Position numbers and translations under genes: made by a program. DNA of 53,780 nt. It comes from an uncultured Anaeromyxobacter sp. GTDB lineage: Bacteria > Myxococcota > Myxococcia > Myxococcales > Anaeromyxobacteraceae. Shown piece by piece: positions 22,217-50,392 of the stretch; positions within the stretch are counted from its first letter, which is position 1, and each line of letters opens with the position of its first letter. The notes beneath the pieces were generated by a model, which worked only from the letters and a program-made list of their open reading frames with translations, made no database searches and was not told the origin of the DNA. Where the stretch lies: assembly GCA_903904005.1 (NCBI GenBank), contig CAIVAR010000118.1, positions 1 through 53,780 of the forward strand. Reading direction: 5' to 3'.

Positions 22217-22840
22217 CTACTGGAAGAATGGACGGTAGTTGAGCACGTAACGGAGATCCTTCGTTCGAACCCCGATGCGGCGAGCGGGGATCCCCGCGAA
22301 GATCTCGTAATCAGGAATACTCTTTGTTGCCAGGGACGTCGAACCCAGGATGGCTCCCTTGCCGATCGTCACGCCCGGGTTGATCATCGCTCGCGCACCA
22401 ATCCAAGCGTAGTCCTCGATCAAGACCGAGGTGTAGTAACACCTGAAGTCCGGATCGTTCGCGAGGTGGGATGTCGTGAATATATAGGTCTCCGCGGTGA
22501 TGGAGACGTTGTTCTTGATGGTGACGGAGCCCATCACCACGCATTTTCGTCCAATCACCGAATGGTCTCCGATCGAGATGTCGCCCTCGAATCGCGTTCC
22601 CATGTGGATAAACGTTCCCCTGCCTACCGGGATGCGCAGCATGTATCGCAGGTAGAGAAGGCGGAGCCAGTAGGCCGGAAAAAACGTCACGACACAGTTG
22701 AAGAAGTAGAAGAGAAAGGCCTTCCCAATCGCGGCCAACCCCCGGGGGCCGAGATTGTGATGAGCGAAGACCACCAATGGATAGAGACGGAGACTTACCA
22801 GGAGGCGTCGGCCGGCCTGTCGGAGGCTCATGTCATCCAC
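22217..22840 (-). CDS. Left-handed beta-helix O-acetyltransferase
   Basis: A 207-aa hexapeptide-repeat acyltransferase: GRGTFIHMGTRFEGDISIGDH and GARAMINPGVTIGKGAILG show the [LIV]-G-x4 repeat, and IFTTSHLANDPDF carries the conserved active-site His of the NodL/WcaF/maltose acetyltransferase group. The N-terminal 60 residues include a hydrophobic segment. It is the last gene of a six-gene minus-strand operon and overlaps wzt by eight bases. It probably acetylates a sugar of the exported glycan. Confidence 0.8.
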   Translation of the reverse strand: MDDMSLRQAGRRLLVSLRLYPLVVFAHHNLGPRGLAAIGKAFLFYFFNCVVTFFPAYWLRLLYLRYMLRIPVGRGTFIHMGTRFEGDISIGDHSVIGRKCVVMGSVTIKNNVSITAETYIFTTSHLANDPDFRCYYTSVLIEDYAWIGARAMINPGVTIGKGAILGSTSLATKSIPDYEIFAGIPARRIGVRTKDLRYVLNYRPFFQ

Positions 22841-24107
22841 CAGACTCTACGTGAAACTCATGGTCGAGGTAGACCCGGCCATAGGCCGGAATGGTCGGGA
22901 GGAGGCATGGAGGAGCGACGGTTTCCTCGACGACGAAGTCAAGTAGATCCCTCTCGTAGAAGTAGAACGAGACGAAGGGAATGTCGATCCCGAAGCCCAG
23001 GGAGTATCTGCCCGAGCAGAGATTGAGCTTGTCGATCCGGCAGGTCACCCGATTCCTTCCCTTGCGAAGGAGCACGTCCAGTCCCTTCCTGGTCTTGGTA
23101 TTCGTCGCAAAGACGATCCCGTTGACGTCCGGGCTCGAGATCAAGAGCTCGATACCGATCCGGTCCACGTCCCTCCTGCACTCGATCTCGATGTCGATCA
23201 CCATTTCCTGGTGGGGATGAACGATTCCGCTCCGTTCCGCGTTAATCTGGATGCTGGTGACCACGAGTTCGATGTCGGGGATGACGATGGCTTGGAAGGA
23301 GTAGTCGCGGGATTCGCGTTTCGAGTAGCACGCTACGGCATCGGAGACGTTGCCATGGAACTTGAGCCTCCCGCGCTCCAGTACCATTCCCCGGTTACAG
23401 AGTTGCTGGATCGCCAGCATATTGTGGCTCACGAAGAGTACGGTGCGCCCCTGTTCCCTTGTGGCGTCGCCCATCTTGCCAAGGCACTTCTTCTGGAAAT
23501 CAGCATCGCCCACCGCCAGCACCTCGTCGACGATGAGGATCTCGGACGACAGGTGGGCCGCTACCGAGAACGCAAGCCGGACATACATCCCGCTGCTGAA
23601 TCGCTTCACGGGGGTATCGAGAAACTTCTCGACGCCGCTGAACTCTACGATCTCGTCGAACCGTGCCCGAATCTCCGAGCGGCTCATGCCGAGGATCGCC
23701 CCGTTCAGGAAGATGTTTTCCCGGCCCGTCAGTTCCGGGTGAAATCCGGTCCCCACTTCCAGGAGGCTGGCCAGGCGACCGTTGATTTCCGCCTGTCCGC
23801 GCGTGGGTTCGGTGATCCTGGAAAGAACCTTTAGCAAGGTGCTCTTCCCGGCTCCGTTGCGCCCGATGATTCCCACCGCATCGCCTCTCGCGATCTCGAA
23901 ATCGAGACCCTGGAGAGCCCAGAACTCCTCGATCACCCTTCCTGAGACGTGGGCGGACCCCGGACTCCACACGCGGCTGATCCGGTCCATGACAGCCCTG
24001 GCCCTGTTGACCAACACGTCCCGAAGCGCGGTGTAGGACTCCCGCCTCTCGTGACCGATGAAGTATCGCTTTCCCAGTCCTGTGGCAGTGATAACGGAGT
24101 TCTTCAT
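22833..24107 (-). CDS. wzt: ABC polysaccharide exporter, ATP-binding subunit
   Basis: A 424-aa Wzt/TagH-type ATPase: Walker A VGIIGRNGAGKSTLL near residues 80-95, FSSGMYVRLAFS signature, Walker B LIVDEVLAVGD and the switch His in LFVSHN. After about residue 260 there is a beta-rich C-terminal domain (SFQAIVIPDIELVVTSIQ) corresponding to the carbohydrate-binding domain of Wzt, which recognises the chain terminus in O-antigen exporters. It lies 3 bases after the permease gene. Confidence 0.92.
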   Translation of the reverse strand: MKNSVITATGLGKRYFIGHERRESYTALRDVLVNRARAVMDRISRVWSPGSAHVSGRVIEEFWALQGLDFEIARGDAVGIIGRNGAGKSTLLKVLSRITEPTRGQAEINGRLASLLEVGTGFHPELTGRENIFLNGAILGMSRSEIRARFDEIVEFSGVEKFLDTPVKRFSSGMYVRLAFSVAAHLSSEILIVDEVLAVGDADFQKKCLGKMGDATREQGRTVLFVSHNMLAIQQLCNRGMVLERGRLKFHGNVSDAVACYSKRESRDYSFQAIVIPDIELVVTSIQINAERSGIVHPHQEMVIDIEIECRRDVDRIGIELLISSPDVNGIVFATNTKTRKGLDVLLRKGRNRVTCRIDKLNLCSGRYSLGFGIDIPFVSFYFYERDLLDFVVEETVAPPCLLPTIPAYGRVYLDHEFHVESGG

Positions 24108-24110
24108 GTC

Positions 24111-24971
24111 CTATATCGTGTCCGCAAAGGTCTGCTCCATCGCCCGGAATCGGTGAAGTGCGTAGCCGAGCACGGACAGCGTGAAGACGACAGATACGGT
24201 CAGATAGACGCTGGAGGATGCAGACCAGCTCTGCCCGATGATGGACCAGCGGAAGCCGTCGATCACGGCCACCACGGGGTTGGCGTTGTAGAGGGGCCTC
24301 CAGCGGTCAGGTATTGCTGAGCTGCTGAAGCCGATGGGGGCAACGTACATGCCCACCTGGACGATGAAGGGGATGACGTAACGGAAATCCCGGTATTTCA
24401 CGTTGAGGGTGGCGAGGTAAAGCCCGAATCCGAAGGCCTGGAGGAACGCAAGCAGGGTGAAGAAGGGGAGGACGAGGACCCGCCAGGTTGGCGGGTACCC
24501 GTAGTAGGCCATCAATCCGACGAGAATCACGAAGGAGATCAAGAAATCCACGAAACTGGTGATGATGGCGCTCGCGGGGACGATGAGGCGGGGGAAGTAA
24601 ACCTTGGAAAGCAGGTTGGAGTTGGTGATCAGGCTTTCACTCGCGCCGGTCAAGGCCGACGAGAAGAACTGCCAGGGAAGGAGGCCGGCGAAAACCATGA
24701 TTGCATAGGGAGCAGAACTCTCCAACTTCATGCCCGCGACCTTCCCGAACACAACGGTGAGGATGACCATGGTCAGAAGGGGCCGGAGGACGGCCCACGC
24801 CACGCCGATGGCCGTCTGCTTGTAGCGAACCTTCACGTCGCGCCAGCTGAGGATGTAGAAGAGCTCTCTGAAGTGCCAGAGGTCGGACCAATAATTCTTC
24901 TCGGTACGTCCCGGCGCCACGATGACCCGATAGCTCGTTTCCATGATCTCCATCTCATGCCATCGTTTCAT
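24111..24971 (-). CDS. wzm: ABC polysaccharide exporter, permease subunit
   Basis: A 286-aa ABC-2 type permease with six hydrophobic segments and the family segments RELFYILSWRDVKVRYKQT, IGVAWAVLRPLLTMV and FAGLLPWQFFSSAL. It pairs with the downstream ATPase to move a lipid-linked glycan across the inner membrane. The far N-terminus has three possible Met starts; ATG at 24971 is used here, and one at residue 7 or 10 is also plausible. It lies 35 bases after a glycosyltransferase on the same strand. Confidence 0.92.
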   Translation of the reverse strand: MKRWHEMEIMETSYRVIVAPGRTEKNYWSDLWHFRELFYILSWRDVKVRYKQTAIGVAWAVLRPLLTMVILTVVFGKVAGMKLESSAPYAIMVFAGLLPWQFFSSALTGASESLITNSNLLSKVYFPRLIVPASAIITSFVDFLISFVILVGLMAYYGYPPTWRVLVLPFFTLLAFLQAFGFGLYLATLNVKYRDFRYVIPFIVQVGMYVAPIGFSSSAIPDRWRPLYNANPVVAVIDGFRWSIIGQSWSASSSVYLTVSVVFTLSVLGYALHRFRAMEQTFADTI

Positions 24972-32940: not shown

Positions 32941-35310
32941 ATGCCACTCATGACCATTCACCTTTCCCGCATGATCCGGCGAGCCGCTCTTCTGGGGATG
33001 CTCGGAGCGCTCCTCGTTGCCCTGCCTGCCGGCGCTCAGGAAGCAGCCCCGCCCGGTACGGTGCCACAGCAGGAGGCCCTGGGTGCCGTCATAGGCGCCG
33101 GCGCCGGCGCCGGCCAGCGAGTCGAGACGCTGCGCTCTCCTTCTGCGATCCCGATGGCCCCCCAGGCGGTCGTCACTCCCTCGGCGCCACCCGCTGTCCC
33201 TGCGCAACCCCCCCCCACCGACTTCCAGCGTTTCATCGCCACCTCGGTGGGAGCGCTCCTCCCCGTCTTCGGCCAGAGCCTCTTCGCTGCCCCGCCCAGC
33301 ACCTTCGCGCCCCTGAGCGACCTCGCCCCGACCGCCGACTACGTGGTCGGACCCGGCGACGAACTCCGGGTCCGTGCCTGGGGCCAGGTGGACATCGACG
33401 TCAGCGCGGTGGTCACCCGCGAGGGCACCATCACCATCCCGCGCGTGGGCGTCGTTCCGGTGGCCGGCATCCGCTACCAGGACCTGAACGCCACCACCCG
33501 AGCCGCGGTGGGGCGCCTCTACAAGAATTTCGACCTGGCCGTCTCGCTGGGCAGGCTCCGTTCCATCCAGGTCTTCGTGGTCGGCCAGGCGGTGCGCCCC
33601 GGGCTCTACACCATCAGCTCGCTCAGCACGCTACTGAACGGCCTCTTCGCTTCGGGCGGTCCTGCCCCCACCGGCTCGATGCGACAGATCGAGCTGCGGC
33701 GCGCCGGGTCGCTGGTCGGCCAGCTCGATCTGTACGACCTGCTCCTCAAGGGGGACAAGTCGAAGGACCTTCGGCTCCAGTCGGGCGACGTGATCTTCAT
33801 CCCGCCCAGGGGCCCGGTGGCCGCCATCTCCGGGGGCGTGAAGACGCCCGCGATCTTTGAGCTAGCCAGTGCCGACACGCGCATCTCGGAGCTGATCGCC
33901 TACGCAGGCGGAACCACCACCACCGCCGACACCCAGTCGATCCAGCTGGAGCGGCTCGATCAGAAGCTGGGGCGGGTGGTGCAGGAGCTTCCCTGGGCGC
34001 CTCTCGCGCTCGCCACCCCGCTCCGCGACGGTGACGTGGTCCTGCTTCGCACCATCTCCCAGCGCTTCGAGAACGCCGTCACCTTGCGCGGCAACGTGGC
34101 CTTCCCGATCCGCACCGAGTGGAAGAAGGGGCTCACCGTGTCGGGTCTCATCCCCGACCGACGGATCCTGATCCCCGAGGGCTACTGGGCCCGGATCGGT
34201 GGCCTCACCTCCGAGGGGCCTCGTCAGAGCGGTACCCGCGCATCCGACGGGCTACGCCCGGATGGTACCCGCGCCTCCGACGGGCTACGCCCGGATGGTA
34301 CCCGCGCCTCGTCCCGGGACATGTCTGGGCGGCTCGCGGTCGACGTGGAGAATCTGCTCGACGAGGTGAACTGGGACTACGCCGTCATCGAGCGGCTCGA
34401 CCGCGCCCGGCTGGAGCCCCAGGTCATTCCCTTCAACCTTCGCAAGGCGGTGGTCGATCGCGACCCGGCCAGCGACCTGCCGCTCGAGCCCGGCGACGTT
34501 GTCACCGTCTTCTCGCAGAAGGACGTGCTCTCGCCCGCCGAGAAGCGCTTCCAGATCGTGCGCATAGAGGGCGAGGTGAACACACCCGGCATCTACCAGG
34601 TTCGCCCGGGCGAGACCCTTCGCCAGCTGGTGGCCCGCGCCGGCGGGCTAAGCAAGAATGCTTACCTCTTCGGCGCCGAGTTCAGTCGCGAGAGTGTTCG
34701 CAAGGACCAGCAGGCCCGGCTCGACGAGGTGGGGCGCCGCGCCGAGGCGGCGCTGGAGCGATCGTCCACGGAGCGGCTCGCACGGGCCACCTCCGAGGAC
34801 GCCACTGCGGCCAGGTCCCAGATGGAGACCCAGCGGGCCGCCATCGCCCGCCTGCGCGCCCTCCGTGCCTCCGGCCGCATCGTGCTTGGGCTGCAGCCGG
34901 ATGCAAGCAAGGTGGAGGATCTGCCCGACCTCGTGCTCGAGGACTCGGATCGGTTCTTCGTGCCCTACACCTTCTCGTCGGTGGGCGTCTACGGGGCGGT
35001 CTACGCCCAGTCGAGCCTCATCTACAGGCCCGGGAACCGCCTGGGTGACTACCTGGCCATGGCAGGGGGCCCCACCAGCAGCGCCGACTCGGGCAGCACC
35101 TATGTGCTCCGCGCCGACGGATCGGTCTTCGCGCGACGGCACGTGGGGCTCTTCGGCAGCTTCGACGGGAAGGTGCTCGCGCCGAACGACGCCATCGTGG
35201 TGCCCGAGGACTACAACCCGACCAACTGGGTCCGGGAGCTGAAGGACTGGTCGCAGATCTTCTTCAACTTCGGCCTGGGCGTGGCGGCGTTGAAGGTGCT
35301 GGTGCCGTGA
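32941..35310 (+). CDS. Wza-type outer-membrane polysaccharide export protein
   Basis: A 789-aa export protein, about twice E. coli Wza. A signal peptide ends near VALPAGAQ. There is no lipobox Cys visible. A Poly_export domain (TADYVVGPGDELRVRAWG) begins near residue 130, followed by several SLBB-like domains (VFVVGQAVRPGLYTI; VRIEGEVNTPGIYQV; GVYGAVYAQ). A coiled-coil-like charged segment lies near residues 575-650, and the C-terminal NWVRELKDWSQIFFNFG may be the membrane helix. A 33-bp tandem repeat is inserted near residue 430. The start could also be ATG at 32950 or TTG at 32905. Confidence 0.88.
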   Translation: MPLMTIHLSRMIRRAALLGMLGALLVALPAGAQEAAPPGTVPQQEALGAVIGAGAGAGQRVETLRSPSAIPMAPQAVVTPSAPPAVPAQPPPTDFQRFIATSVGALLPVFGQSLFAAPPSTFAPLSDLAPTADYVVGPGDELRVRAWGQVDIDVSAVVTREGTITIPRVGVVPVAGIRYQDLNATTRAAVGRLYKNFDLAVSLGRLRSIQVFVVGQAVRPGLYTISSLSTLLNGLFASGGPAPTGSMRQIELRRAGSLVGQLDLYDLLLKGDKSKDLRLQSGDVIFIPPRGPVAAISGGVKTPAIFELASADTRISELIAYAGGTTTTADTQSIQLERLDQKLGRVVQELPWAPLALATPLRDGDVVLLRTISQRFENAVTLRGNVAFPIRTEWKKGLTVSGLIPDRRILIPEGYWARIGGLTSEGPRQSGTRASDGLRPDGTRASDGLRPDGTRASSRDMSGRLAVDVENLLDEVNWDYAVIERLDRARLEPQVIPFNLRKAVVDRDPASDLPLEPGDVVTVFSQKDVLSPAEKRFQIVRIEGEVNTPGIYQVRPGETLRQLVARAGGLSKNAYLFGAEFSRESVRKDQQARLDEVGRRAEAALERSSTERLARATSEDATAARSQMETQRAAIARLRALRASGRIVLGLQPDASKVEDLPDLVLEDSDRFFVPYTFSSVGVYGAVYAQSSLIYRPGNRLGDYLAMAGGPTSSADSGSTYVLRADGSVFARRHVGLFGSFDGKVLAPNDAIVVPEDYNPTNWVRELKDWSQIFFNFGLGVAALKVLVP
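34228..34314 (+). repeat. 33-bp in-frame tandem repeat within the export gene
   Basis: Copies at 34228-34260, 34261-34293 and a partial one at 34294-34314 encode [S/D]GTRASDGLRP. Copies 2 and 3 are identical over the shared length, and copy 1 differs by a few bases. The unit is 11 codons, so length changes keep the frame. This resembles a recent slippage-type expansion. Confidence 0.9.
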
Positions 35311-35319
35311 GTCCGCCGT

Positions 35320-36519
35320 ATGGATAACGCGCCAAGCCCGTCGAACTCTTCCGGTCAGTTTCGCGATCCGGTGGTCAGGCCCATTGACCTCCTCATCTTA
35401 CTCGGCCGGAGCAAGCGAATGATCTTGGGCGTGACGTTTGGCGTCACGCTGGCCGCCGTCGGCTACACGCTCTTCCTGCCCAAGACGTTCACCGCCGTCG
35501 CACGGATCCTCCCGCCGCAGCAGGGCCAGAGCACTGCCGCGATGCTCCTGGGGCAGATCGGTGGCGGGCTGGGTGGCTTGGCGGGGGGAATTGGGAAGGG
35601 ACCGTCCGACCTCTACATCGGAATGCTAAAGAGCGAGACCGTCGCCGACGCGCTCATCGAGCGCTTCAAGCTCAGGGAGGTATGGAAGCCCAAGTTCCTC
35701 CTCGAGGCGCGAGGAAGGCTTGCGTCGAGCTCGACCTTCACCGCCGAGAAGGGCGGCATCATCAGCATCGAGGTCCGGGAGCGCGATCCGAAGCTGGCAG
35801 CCGACCTGGCGAACGCCTACGTGGAGCAACTCCACAAGCTCACCAGCACGCTCGCGATCAGCGAGGCCTCCCAGCGTCGGGTCTTCTTCGAGCAGCAGCA
35901 GCAGCAAGCGAAGGAGAAGTTAGCCGACGCCGAGGTCCGGCTTCGCCAAGCGATCGAGTCGGGTGGCCTGGTCTCGGTGGATGCCCAAGGGCGTGCGGTG
36001 GTGGAAATTATGGGCCGGTTACGGGCCCAGATCAGCGCCAAGGAGATCCAAATAGGAAGCATGAAAGCATTCGCTGCGCCGTCGAATCCGGATCTGCAGC
36101 GAGCGGAGCGGGAGTTGGTGGCCATGCGCCAGGAACTCTCCCGGCTCGAGGCGGGATCCCCGCTAGAGGATGTGGTCGACCGCAAGGAAGCCAAGGGCGT
36201 CGGTCACATCCGGCTCATGCGCGACGTGAAGTACAACGAGGTCTTGTTCGAAGCGCTAGCCAAGCAGTACGAACTGGCACGCGTCGAGGAGGCACGGGAA
36301 GCTCCAATCGTCCAGGTCCTCGACCGGGCCGTCCAGCCGGAGAAGGCGTCCGGCCCCAATCGCCGACTGATCGTCACCCTGGCCGCAGTTTGTGGGTTCC
36401 TGGCAGCCATGCTCTTCGCCTTCGCAAAGAACGCGCTCCAGACCGCCCGCCAGGACCCAGCCTTCGAGGGCAAGCTCTCCGCCCTCCGCGCCGCCTGGTC
36501 CCGCCGCAAGCCCGAGTAG
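35320..36519 (+). CDS. Wzz/Wzc-type chain-length determinant (no kinase domain)
   Basis: A 399-aa polysaccharide co-polymerase: N-terminal membrane segment near residues 33-52 after VVRPIDLLILLGRSKR, a Wzz periplasmic domain (FTAVARILPPQQG; SKLAADLANAYVEQL-like KLAADLANAYVEQL), a coiled-coil Gln/Lys-rich stretch (QQQQQAKEKLADAEVRLRQ) and a C-terminal membrane helix with preceding Pro-rich motif QPEKASGPNR. It ends soon after, without the Walker-bearing BY-kinase domain of Wzc. It follows the exporter gene by 9 bases. Confidence 0.88.
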   Translation: MDNAPSPSNSSGQFRDPVVRPIDLLILLGRSKRMILGVTFGVTLAAVGYTLFLPKTFTAVARILPPQQGQSTAAMLLGQIGGGLGGLAGGIGKGPSDLYIGMLKSETVADALIERFKLREVWKPKFLLEARGRLASSSTFTAEKGGIISIEVRERDPKLAADLANAYVEQLHKLTSTLAISEASQRRVFFEQQQQQAKEKLADAEVRLRQAIESGGLVSVDAQGRAVVEIMGRLRAQISAKEIQIGSMKAFAAPSNPDLQRAERELVAMRQELSRLEAGSPLEDVVDRKEAKGVGHIRLMRDVKYNEVLFEALAKQYELARVEEAREAPIVQVLDRAVQPEKASGPNRRLIVTLAAVCGFLAAMLFAFAKNALQTARQDPAFEGKLSALRAAWSRRKPE

Positions 36520-36538: not shown

Positions 36539-37165
36539 TCAGAAGATCCAGCCGAAGCCCAGCTGTACCCCCACCCACTGGGCGTTCTTCACCTCGAAGA
36601 AGCTCGCCGTCGTCCACTGGTATCGCCCGAGCAGGTAGAACGCGAACGAGTCCGACGTGCTCAGCATGAGCCCGACCTCCGGATCCACCACCAGGTAGGA
36701 GCTGTAGCTGTTCTGGACCCGGTCCGCCGTCTGGATCCGCGTGGCGGTCCAGATCCCCCCCACGCCCACGCCCACGAAGGGCTGGAGCCTCGTGGAGGTG
36801 AGGTAGTAGTGCACCGTTCCACGCGCCGTGAAGGCGCCGAGGCGCCGGTACACCGGGCCCGTCACCGTGAACTCGGGGTACAGGGTGGTCGCCTGCGAGA
36901 AGTTCTGGTCGAACCAGTTGTAGTTCATGGCGACGCCCACCGAGAGCCGTTCCACGATTCCGACCTGGATCGCGAACTGCCCGCCGGCCGGGCTCACCCG
37001 GTTCACCCAGTTGTTCCGCAGCCCGTTCACCGGGATGCCGACCTCGTACCCGATCGCCCAGAAGCTCTGGTTCGGGTGCCAGGCATCCAGGAACCCGTCG
37101 GCTCGCGCCTGCGACGGCTGGACGAGGAGGGCGGCCAGCGCCAGGAGGAGGAGCGCATTGCGCAT
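36539..37165 (-). CDS. Outer-membrane beta-barrel-like protein
   Basis: A 208-aa protein with a signal peptide (LLLLALAALLVQPSQARA) and then alternating beta strands ending in an aromatic C-terminal residue (GVQLGFGWIF), the pattern of small outer-membrane porin-like barrels. ATG at 37165 overlaps the stop of the upstream gene (TGATG); GTG at 37168 is an alternative. Together with the lipoprotein upstream it forms a two-gene minus-strand operon. Function unknown. Confidence 0.7.
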   Translation of the reverse strand: MRNALLLLALAALLVQPSQARADGFLDAWHPNQSFWAIGYEVGIPVNGLRNNWVNRVSPAGGQFAIQVGIVERLSVGVAMNYNWFDQNFSQATTLYPEFTVTGPVYRRLGAFTARGTVHYYLTSTRLQPFVGVGVGGIWTATRIQTADRVQNSYSSYLVVDPEVGLMLSTSDSFAFYLLGRYQWTTASFFEVKNAQWVGVQLGFGWIF

Positions 37166-37803
37166 CACGGCGCGCCCCCCGTCACGAGATAGGGAGACTG
37201 GGCAAACGCCTGGTTCACCGACTCCACGGCGGTGAGCCCCGTCACGCTGCCCCCCGGCGGCAGGACCGCGTACGAGGCGCCGGCCCAGATGACGTCGAAG
37301 GCCGCTTCATTTCCCGGGGGAGGAGGGTTCCTGAGATCTGCGAGCGGCAGGAGCAGCGTCCCCACCGTGTAGGGCACCCAGGTCCAGGGCGAGTTGCAGC
37401 CGTAGTCGGGATAGCTCCACCAGCTCCACCAGTCGCATGGGTAGGCGGCGGAGCGCGCCACCTGGAGGACCACCGGGTTCAGGGCCAGGTCAGCGTCCGG
37501 GGGGACGAGCGGCGGGTTCTCCGGGTCGATCACCGCCACCATCACGTACCCGCGGGCAGCCATGTTGGCGTTGATCGCCGCAAAGATCGCCGGAGCCGGC
37601 ACGAAGGTGTAGACCGGGATTCCGACGACCTCCTGGTAGACGGCGAGCTTGTTCGTGATGGCGTAGGTCCGGTAGGCCCCGAAATCGGCCGCCGGATCAC
37701 GGTAGGTGATCACGGAGGTCCCCGTGACGACGGTGCTCGAGACGTTGTCCGAGCACCCGGTAAATGCGAGCGAAAGCACGGCGAGAATGGTGACTCGGTA
37801 CAT
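37165..37803 (-). CDS. DUF4136-like lipoprotein
   Basis: A 212-aa predicted lipoprotein: signal peptide with lipobox LAFTGC, then ITYRDPAADFGAYRTYAI, the opening typical of DUF4136 proteins, and DADLALNPVVLQVA. The ATG at 37803 is chosen because GGAGG precedes it by 8 bases; the GTG three codons upstream overlaps that ribosome-binding site. A Trp/Pro-rich middle (CDWWSWWSYP) is unusual. Function unknown; envelope location is inferred from the lipobox. Confidence 0.75.
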   Translation of the reverse strand: MYRVTILAVLSLAFTGCSDNVSSTVVTGTSVITYRDPAADFGAYRTYAITNKLAVYQEVVGIPVYTFVPAPAIFAAINANMAARGYVMVAVIDPENPPLVPPDADLALNPVVLQVARSAAYPCDWWSWWSYPDYGCNSPWTWVPYTVGTLLLPLADLRNPPPPGNEAAFDVIWAGASYAVLPPGGSVTGLTAVESVNQAFAQSPYLVTGGAP

Positions 37804-37877
37804 CCCACGCACCTCCGAAGGGGTAGTTATCCATCAACCGGCACGCGCGACCAAGCCCAAATCGGTCCTGCAGGTGG

Positions 37878-48361: not shown

Positions 48362-48481
48362 GGGCGTGGTGAGCTTGCCCCGGCCCCTGTCGGGGCTGCC
48401 CCATCAGGTCACGGACAAACACGGAAAGTGTTCGCCCTCCGGGTGCTAAGGTCCTCTTCTTCGAACTTCTCAGGAGGACGC

Positions 48482-50392
48482 ATGGCCTCGAATCGTCGTT
48501 TCCGGTTGGCCCACACTCCCGCCATGTTCGTCGCCCTCGCCCTGGCGGCCGCCGGCTGCAAGAGCAGTTCCGCCCCCGCGCCAACGGCTCCCGTCATCAC
48601 CGCGTTCACGGCCACGCCCGCCACGGTCCCGGCGGGAAGCCCGTCGAGCCTGGCCTGGACGGTCACGGGCGCAGACTCCCTGTCGATCGACCACGGGGTG
48701 GGCACGGTGACCGGGGCCAGCATCCCCGTCATCCCCGCAGCCACCACGACCTACCGGCTGTCGGCCACCAACGCGGTCGGCACGACGACCGCCGACGTGA
48801 CGGTCACCGTGACCCTTTCACCCCCCGCGAACCTCACCTACTCGTTCAATCCGGCGACCTACGCCGGGGGAACGCCCATCCAGAACAACCTCCCCGACAG
48901 CACGGGCGGCCCGGTCGCGAGCTATTCCGTCTCCCCGGCGCTGCCGATGGCCCTGGACCTCGATCCGGTCACCGGCATCATCTCGGGAACCCCGTTCGAG
49001 ACCTGGCCCACCACCGACCACACGGTGACGGCGACCAACGGCGCGGGCTTCACCACGGTGATCCTCCGCATCACGGTCACTGGCCCGACGGCGCCGGTCA
49101 TCACCGTCCAGCCCGTGAGCGTCGGCGTCGTCCCCCCGGCTCCGGCGACCTTCCAGGTGACCGCCACGGGTTCGGGACCGCTCCAGTACCAGTGGAAGAG
49201 GAACGCCGACTTCATCACCGGTGCCGACGCGAGTTCCTACACCACCCCGCCCACGGCAACCTCCGACACCGGCGCCGTCTACAGCGTCGAGGTGAGCGAC
49301 GCGTTCGGCAACGCCGTACTGAGCAACGGCGCGACGCTCACCGTCCAGGGCTTCACCGCGACCGGGGCGATGTCGACGAAGCGCGTCTACCACACCGCCA
49401 CGCTGCTCGACGACGGGAAGGTGCTCGTGACCGGGGGCACGAACGGGATCTCGACGCTGGCCACGGCGGAGATCTACGACCCCGACACCGGCGTCTTCAC
49501 GGCCACGACCCGCGCGATGAACACGGCGCGGCAAGGCCACTCGGCGGTCCGGATAGCGGACGGCAAGGTGCTCATCGCGGGCGGAAACGCGGGGGCTGCC
49601 ATCCTCGCCACCGCCGAGATCTACGATCCCGCGACCGGGACCTTCGCGGTCACGGGGAGCATGCCCGACCCGAGGGAGGACTTCGTCGCTGCCCTCGTCA
49701 CCGGCAACAAGGTGCTCGTGGCCGGGGGGTTCGGAGGGAACCCTCGGGCGCAAAGCCCGCTCGCCACGGCCGCCCTGTTCGACCCCACTGGGAACGGGGG
49801 TATCGGCGCCTTCACGGCGACGGCATCCCTGGGCACGTCCCGGGACACCCCGATGGCCGCGACGCTCCAGGACGGCAAGGTCCTCGTCTTGGGCGGCGTC
49901 GGCAGCGGGACGGGAACCCTCGCGTCGGCGGAGACGTTCGATCCCCTCTCGCCGGCCTTCACGTCGACGGGGGGCATGACCTTCGCTACCTGGAAGGGAA
50001 CGGCGACCGTGCTCGCGAGCGGGAAGGTCCTCGTGGCCGGCGGTCAGCCCGGGTTCGACACCGTCGCCACGGCCAACCTCTACGACCCGGGGCCGCGTTC
50101 CTTCGCGGCTACCGGATCGATGGGCTCGGCCCGCGCCCTCCAGACCGCATCGCTGCTCTCCGACGGAGTGGTCCTCGTCGCCGGCGGCGTGCTCGGCACG
50201 ACGCTCCTCGTGACCCCGGAGTTCTTCAACCCCACGTCCGGCACCTTCGCCCCGGCCACGGCACAGAACCTGATCACGGGGCGCTACAGCCACACGGCGA
50301 CGGTGCTGGACGACGGCCGGGTGCTGGTCGTGGGTGGAAACGGCGCAACCGGCCCGCTCTCCTCAGCGGAGCTCTGGACCTCGGTTCGCTAG
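48482..50392 (+). CDS. Kelch-repeat lipoprotein with Ig-like domains
   Basis: A 636-aa protein with AGGAGG 4 bases before the ATG. Signal peptide ends in the lipobox LAAAGC. Residues about 35-115 and 120-200 are Ig/cadherin-like beta domains (ITAFTATPATVPAGSPSSLAW; SPALPMALDLDPVTGIISG), about 210-295 a further Ig-like domain, and from about 300 to the end are six to seven Kelch-type blades with the repeated HTATLLDDGKVLVTGG...TAEIYDP pattern. Probably an outer-surface or periplasmic lipoprotein; ligand unknown. Confidence 0.85.
   Translation: MASNRRFRLAHTPAMFVALALAAAGCKSSSAPAPTAPVITAFTATPATVPAGSPSSLAWTVTGADSLSIDHGVGTVTGASIPVIPAATTTYRLSATNAVGTTTADVTVTVTLSPPANLTYSFNPATYAGGTPIQNNLPDSTGGPVASYSVSPALPMALDLDPVTGIISGTPFETWPTTDHTVTATNGAGFTTVILRITVTGPTAPVITVQPVSVGVVPPAPATFQVTATGSGPLQYQWKRNADFITGADASSYTTPPTATSDTGAVYSVEVSDAFGNAVLSNGATLTVQGFTATGAMSTKRVYHTATLLDDGKVLVTGGTNGISTLATAEIYDPDTGVFTATTRAMNTARQGHSAVRIADGKVLIAGGNAGAAILATAEIYDPATGTFAVTGSMPDPREDFVAALVTGNKVLVAGGFGGNPRAQSPLATAALFDPTGNGGIGAFTATASLGTSRDTPMAATLQDGKVLVLGGVGSGTGTLASAETFDPLSPAFTSTGGMTFATWKGTATVLASGKVLVAGGQPGFDTVATANLYDPGPRSFAATGSMGSARALQTASLLSDGVVLVAGGVLGTTLLVTPEFFNPTSGTFAPATAQNLITGRYSHTATVLDDGRVLVVGGNGATGPLSSAELWTSVR

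Follow-up and report, generated by a model that had tools for sequence, protein, structure and literature searches.

Tandem repeats in a predicted disordered loop of a putative KpsD-like exporter from an uncultured Anaeromyxobacter

The exporter gene and its surroundings

The window analyzed here is the whole 53,780-nucleotide stretch of contig CAIVAR010000118.1, from an uncultured Anaeromyxobacter sp. whose source genome comprises 4.56 Mb in 186 contigs. Open reading frame analysis, Poly_export and SLBB matches and alignment with a same-genus relative, L007, place an OPX gene of 786 codons at 32950-35310 on the forward strand. The frame of about 789 residues described in the first-pass annotation is real and ends at 35310; an ATG at 32941 gives 789 residues, and the ATG at 32950, which the alignment with L007 favors, gives 786.

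The next gene after the exporter (35320-36519, forward strand) encodes an adjacent co-polymerase of 399 residues with Wzz and GNVR domains, in which no kinase domain was recognised. Exporter and co-polymerase genes are adjacent at 23 of 24 orthologous loci, the remaining one (L030) ending within the exporter, and they are adjacent at the G004 locus too. A polysaccharide ABC transporter pair occupies 22833-24971 on the reverse strand, with a Wzt-like ATPase at 22833-24107 and an ABC2 membrane protein at 24111-24971, and genes for a WecA-like transferase, glycosyltransferases and sugar-nucleotide enzymes are present in the window as well. We infer that this is an ordinary surface-polysaccharide locus and that the exporter serves polysaccharide export in its organism.

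Convergent to the exporter pair, the reverse strand at 36539-37812 encodes a possible small outer-membrane barrel (a weak PagL-like match below cut-off) and a DUF4136 protein; the same two genes stand beside the exporter pair in L007, with 90% and 93% identity. A 654-residue protein with Kelch repeats is encoded at 48428-50392 on the forward strand, and three further Poly_export genes are present in the source genome (G000 contigs 73, 139 and 185).

Domain architecture of the exporter

Pfam recognizes a Poly_export domain (PF02563; E 2.7e-17, 63 bits against a cut-off of 28) at 33328-33549 on the forward strand, together with the SLBB families PF10531 and PF22461 above cut-off. The full-length structural model, built with 21 sequences, has a mean pLDDT of 73 and a pTM of 0.37. 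In comparisons of this model with known structures, residues 130-372 resemble Wza (2J58; Z 13.2), Wza entries being the top-scoring folds, and residues 534-757 (34549-35220, forward strand) resemble GfcC (3p42_D; Z 10.4, rmsd 4.9, 178 residues aligned), a module that Foldseek also matches at E 7.7e-9. Pfam matches and fold comparison together confirmed the initial identification as an OPX protein with several SLBB domains. At E up to 1, the Pfam GfcC_C family (PF06251) matches 11 of 21 orthologues and is not among the families reported for the window protein. Within the predicted GfcC-like module, two consecutive helices (residues 581-612 and 615-637) form a hairpin at 34690-34860 on the forward strand (residues 581-637), which matches the part of the protein that had been described as coiled-coil-like.

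As a candidate for class 1 (Wza), the protein carries the GfcC-like module after its SLBB domains in the place of Wza_C (PF18412), which is not among the six families listed for it at E up to 1. A C-terminal helix, residues 757-784, is predicted at pLDDT below 50; it bears on the outer-membrane-spanning helix of class 2B. By eye, the N-terminus is hydrophobic and ends AGA-QE, without a nearby cysteine; a Sec/SPI signal peptide is reported for about 83% of class 2B OPX proteins. Median lengths given in PMC9603273 are 378 residues for class 1 and 824 residues for class 2B. The exporter had been called unusually long, which holds only against Wza; its Wza-like and GfcC-like make-up is that of class 2 OPX proteins, and against the class 2B median its length is ordinary. 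Our best reading of the models is that it is a KpsD-like (class 2B-type) OPX protein, the helix that would settle 2B being a low-confidence prediction.

A 33-bp tandem array within the exporter gene

An array with a 33-bp period was found by TRF at 34231-34310 (2.4 copies, 97% matches). Its score of 153 is the highest of the 11 tandem arrays in the window, the next scoring 50. The two complete units, at 34231-34263 (residues 428-438) and 34264-34296 (residues 439-449) on the forward strand, both encode GTRASDGLRPD and are identical at 32 of 33 bases, the distinguishing base being A or C. They are followed by a partial third copy of 14 bases (34297-34310, forward strand). A 21-base part of the unit matches twice in the window, against 0.01 matches expected by chance. 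The 11-residue mid-protein tandem unit with near-identical DNA copies, as first noticed from the sequence, is therefore real and in frame. The fragmentation of the source assembly into 186 contigs might suggest that the assembler introduced the second unit or resolved it wrongly, but the whole array spans only 80 bp, the two units differ at a distinguishing base, the frame stays open and the flanks align cleanly with L007. We regard such an artefact as very unlikely.

The unit contains, by eye, an imperfect inverted repeat (CATCCG...GGGC TAC GCCC...GGATG), a feature that would suit a mobile or REP-like palindromic element, dispersed over the genome, that had entered the exporter gene. However, a search of the 4.56-Mb genome at up to 3 mismatches found no 33-mer beyond the two copies of the array (the reversed control gave 0 matches), and a 23-base core searched in 25 genomes returned the two copies in the window and three 3-mismatch matches elsewhere, against one for the reversed control. 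The predicted single-strand fold of the unit is no stronger than that of shuffled sequences (z 0.15), a value that also speaks against a DNA hairpin as the cause of the array. An inserted element of this kind is scarcely credible. As to a local origin, the core of the unit may stem from a stretch just upstream (34175-34196, forward strand), to which 20 core bases can be aligned without mismatch if two gaps are allowed. This is a weak, post hoc match of modest score: of 2000 control 20-mers, 0.25% scored as high within the local 300 bp and 2.3% over the whole gene.

L007, from an uncultured Anaeromyxobacter, is the closest named relative of the exporter gene, with 84% protein identity and a difference of 6.9% in the gene. 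In the alignment L007 lacks exactly 66 bp, or two units, at the array but still has the 14-base partial copy, in which a single base differs. Its loop measures 38 residues against 60 in the window. The expansion had been described as recent. The array itself stands, but its recency is unproven, since the single difference between the copies (1 in 33) is not separable from the 6.9% divergence of the gene (P about 0.36 at 6.5% divergence). Two units could also have been lost from L007 by slippage deletion instead of gained in the window. G004, the next relative, offers nothing in its loop that compares with the array and so does not separate gain from loss.

The same-genus relative carries a second exporter gene, L061 (G002 contig 270, about 383-1282), a single open frame in which residues equivalent to about 14-235 are followed at once by those equivalent to about 719-786. 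A complete co-polymerase gene of its own lies downstream. L061 is either a short form that exists in nature or a chimera made in assembly.

The array lies in a loop of a predicted third SLBB domain

Modeled alone, residues 370-532 (34057-34545, forward strand) are predicted to fold as a third SLBB (beta-grasp) domain, split by the repeat-bearing loop. Structural re-alignment of this model to WzaB, Wza and GfcC gave Z scores of 7.1-9.0, against 5.0 for the best unrelated chain. For the domain alone, Pfam returned no match (34057-34539, approximately residues 370-530), and Foldseek alone returned nothing at E 0.001 or below, its best hit being at 1.5e-2. The array falls between two helices of the modeled domain. 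Predicted confidence drops below pLDDT 50 at residues 419-456 of the full-length model and at model residues 51-66 and 68-87 of the domain-only model, and the beta-grasp core around the loop is largely above 85. In these models the array belongs to a disordered stretch that leaves and re-enters a single SLBB domain, and does not space stacked domains apart.

This position bears on the proposal that the repeat could tune periplasmic spacing. Lengthening of the channel is unlikely, because both ends of the loop are fixed in one domain, an argument drawn from position. Phase behavior had been suggested as well; on/off switching by copy number is also unlikely, since the 33-bp unit is a multiple of three and keeps the frame within the coding sequence.

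Arrays and loop length across orthologues

Loops were compared in a starting set of 53 proteins, the window protein and 52 orthologues. Near-duplicates and fragments (L011, L020, L029 and L087; n=4) were removed, proteins that were incomplete or without the NW[DE]YA anchor (L071, L085, L089, L096 and L098; n=5) were dropped, and three with duplicated modules (L027, L088 and L097) were set aside, leaving 41. L030 has no ORF over 400 residues. Among the 41, window included, loop length ranges from 25 to 110 residues with a median of 39; it is 52 residues in L015 and 31 in L017.

Tandem arrays with a TRF score of at least 50 are present in the loops of nine of the 41. Their periods are 33 bp in the window, 18 in G004, 90 in L010 (also seen as 45), 63 in L024, 15 in L026, 9 in L072, 12 in L075, 6 in L091 and 18 in L092; L097, with its duplicated module, has nine copies of an 18-bp unit. 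By eye, the units are unrelated in sequence between orthologues. Repeat content thus varies among relatives of the window gene. We also considered a phase-variable (contingency) gene acting by frame or promoter shift, and found all ten of the loop periods, counting L097, to be multiples of three.

At the same TRF threshold, nine arrays fall in the loop (2088 residues, counted in the 41 proteins), three elsewhere in the folded protein (27,901 residues) and seven N-terminally (5100 residues), the latter two totals being drawn from all 44 proteins. For the N-terminal region, up to 130 residues ahead of the DFQRF anchor were counted, some of which may be untranslated codons. Fisher tests gave odds ratios for the loop of about 40 relative to the rest and 3.1 relative to the N-terminal region, on the assumption that residues are independent and for a region picked because the window has its array there.

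In L010, a repeat unit agrees with the conserved SLBB segment beside it at 34 of 45 bases, and no other place in the gene gives more than 22; to judge from this sequence likeness, the L010 repeats clearly derive from the neighboring SLBB strand. L027 (= L087), L088, L089 and L097 each give two overlapping BLAST alignments over the third SLBB region, as if the module were duplicated, and L027 has two NW[DE]YA motifs. Of 195 genomes of the phylum, six have long orthologues, including that of the window; long orthologues also occur in several betaproteobacterial groups, a distribution that makes horizontal transfer plausible. In literature listings on OPX-protein repeats, and in passages of PMC9603273 and PMC6821194, we saw no OPX loop described as carrying repeats.

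Interpretation

The window gene carries an array in a loop, the two units are absent from the nearest relative, and orthologues carry unrelated arrays in the same loop. The explanation that we consider best, and quite probably correct, is that a class 2B-type exporter has a repeat-prone, mutation-tolerant loop, and that the array reflects ordinary drift of this loop and not a switch. Short stretches of DNA would be duplicated there in tandem by replication slippage or unequal recombination, copied partly from the edges of the loop itself. The resulting arrays would persist because a disordered loop can take up codons in any whole number, and local duplications would accumulate and decay, other lineages having grown different repeats at the same place. 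Both the slippage mechanism and the near-neutrality of the repeats are inferred, and a selected role for loop length is possible.

Such a role would take the form of tuning, in which selection acts on the length of the loop: loops of different length would touch the co-polymerase, the polymer or peptidoglycan differently, and repeat number would in this way adjust export. Consistent with tuning, loop length varies fast (60 versus 38 residues between the window and L007, 52 versus 31 between L015 and L017), repeats recur in unrelated forms and the OPX and co-polymerase genes are kept together at 23 of 24 loci. However, the units of different lineages (GTRASDGLRPD, GQ, KSKE, TTT and EREREQ) share neither sequence nor charge pattern, and many orthologues have a loop of 25-40 residues without an array. 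Moreover, a loop within a domain should not add axial length, whereas duplications of an SLBB module, as suggested for L027, L088, L089 and L097, might. We therefore think it improbable that the repeat tunes the exporter. The wider proposal, that the SLBB loop of long OPX proteins is a conserved, codon-preserving expansion hot spot, seeded by its own flanks and adjusting export or envelope contact through its length, seems to us similarly doubtful; if true, the loop would serve for slow tuning over evolutionary time, by a route separate from phase variation.

Under the preferred reading of a tolerant, repeat-prone loop, the insert in the window would be one case of recurrent, lineage-specific expansion and not a unique event, and the repeat finds its place within a recognised class of long exporters. 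Two routes of size change can then be told apart. Growth of a disordered loop should leave the channel no longer than before, whereas duplication of a whole SLBB module might extend it and is the better lead on how exporters span periplasms of different depth.

Comparison with known exporters

With class 2B OPX proteins, typified by E. coli KpsD and described in PMC9603273, the window protein shares the succession of a Poly_export domain, several SLBB domains and a GfcC-like module, and a length near 800 residues; an ABC transporter is encoded in the window too. The C-terminal helix that completes this succession in class 2B is a low-confidence prediction here, and Pfam GfcC_C has no match in the window member. 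Its likeness to Wza of E. coli (2J58), a class 1 OPX protein, covers residues 130-372 (Z 13.2); unlike Wza, it is about twice as long, has no Wza_C match, ends in a GfcC-like C-terminal module and has no lipoprotein cysteine that could be seen in its N-terminus. GfcC itself (3P42), which residues 534-757 match with Z 10.4 over 178 aligned residues, is a stand-alone protein in the same source, whereas in the window protein the same predicted fold is part of the exporter.
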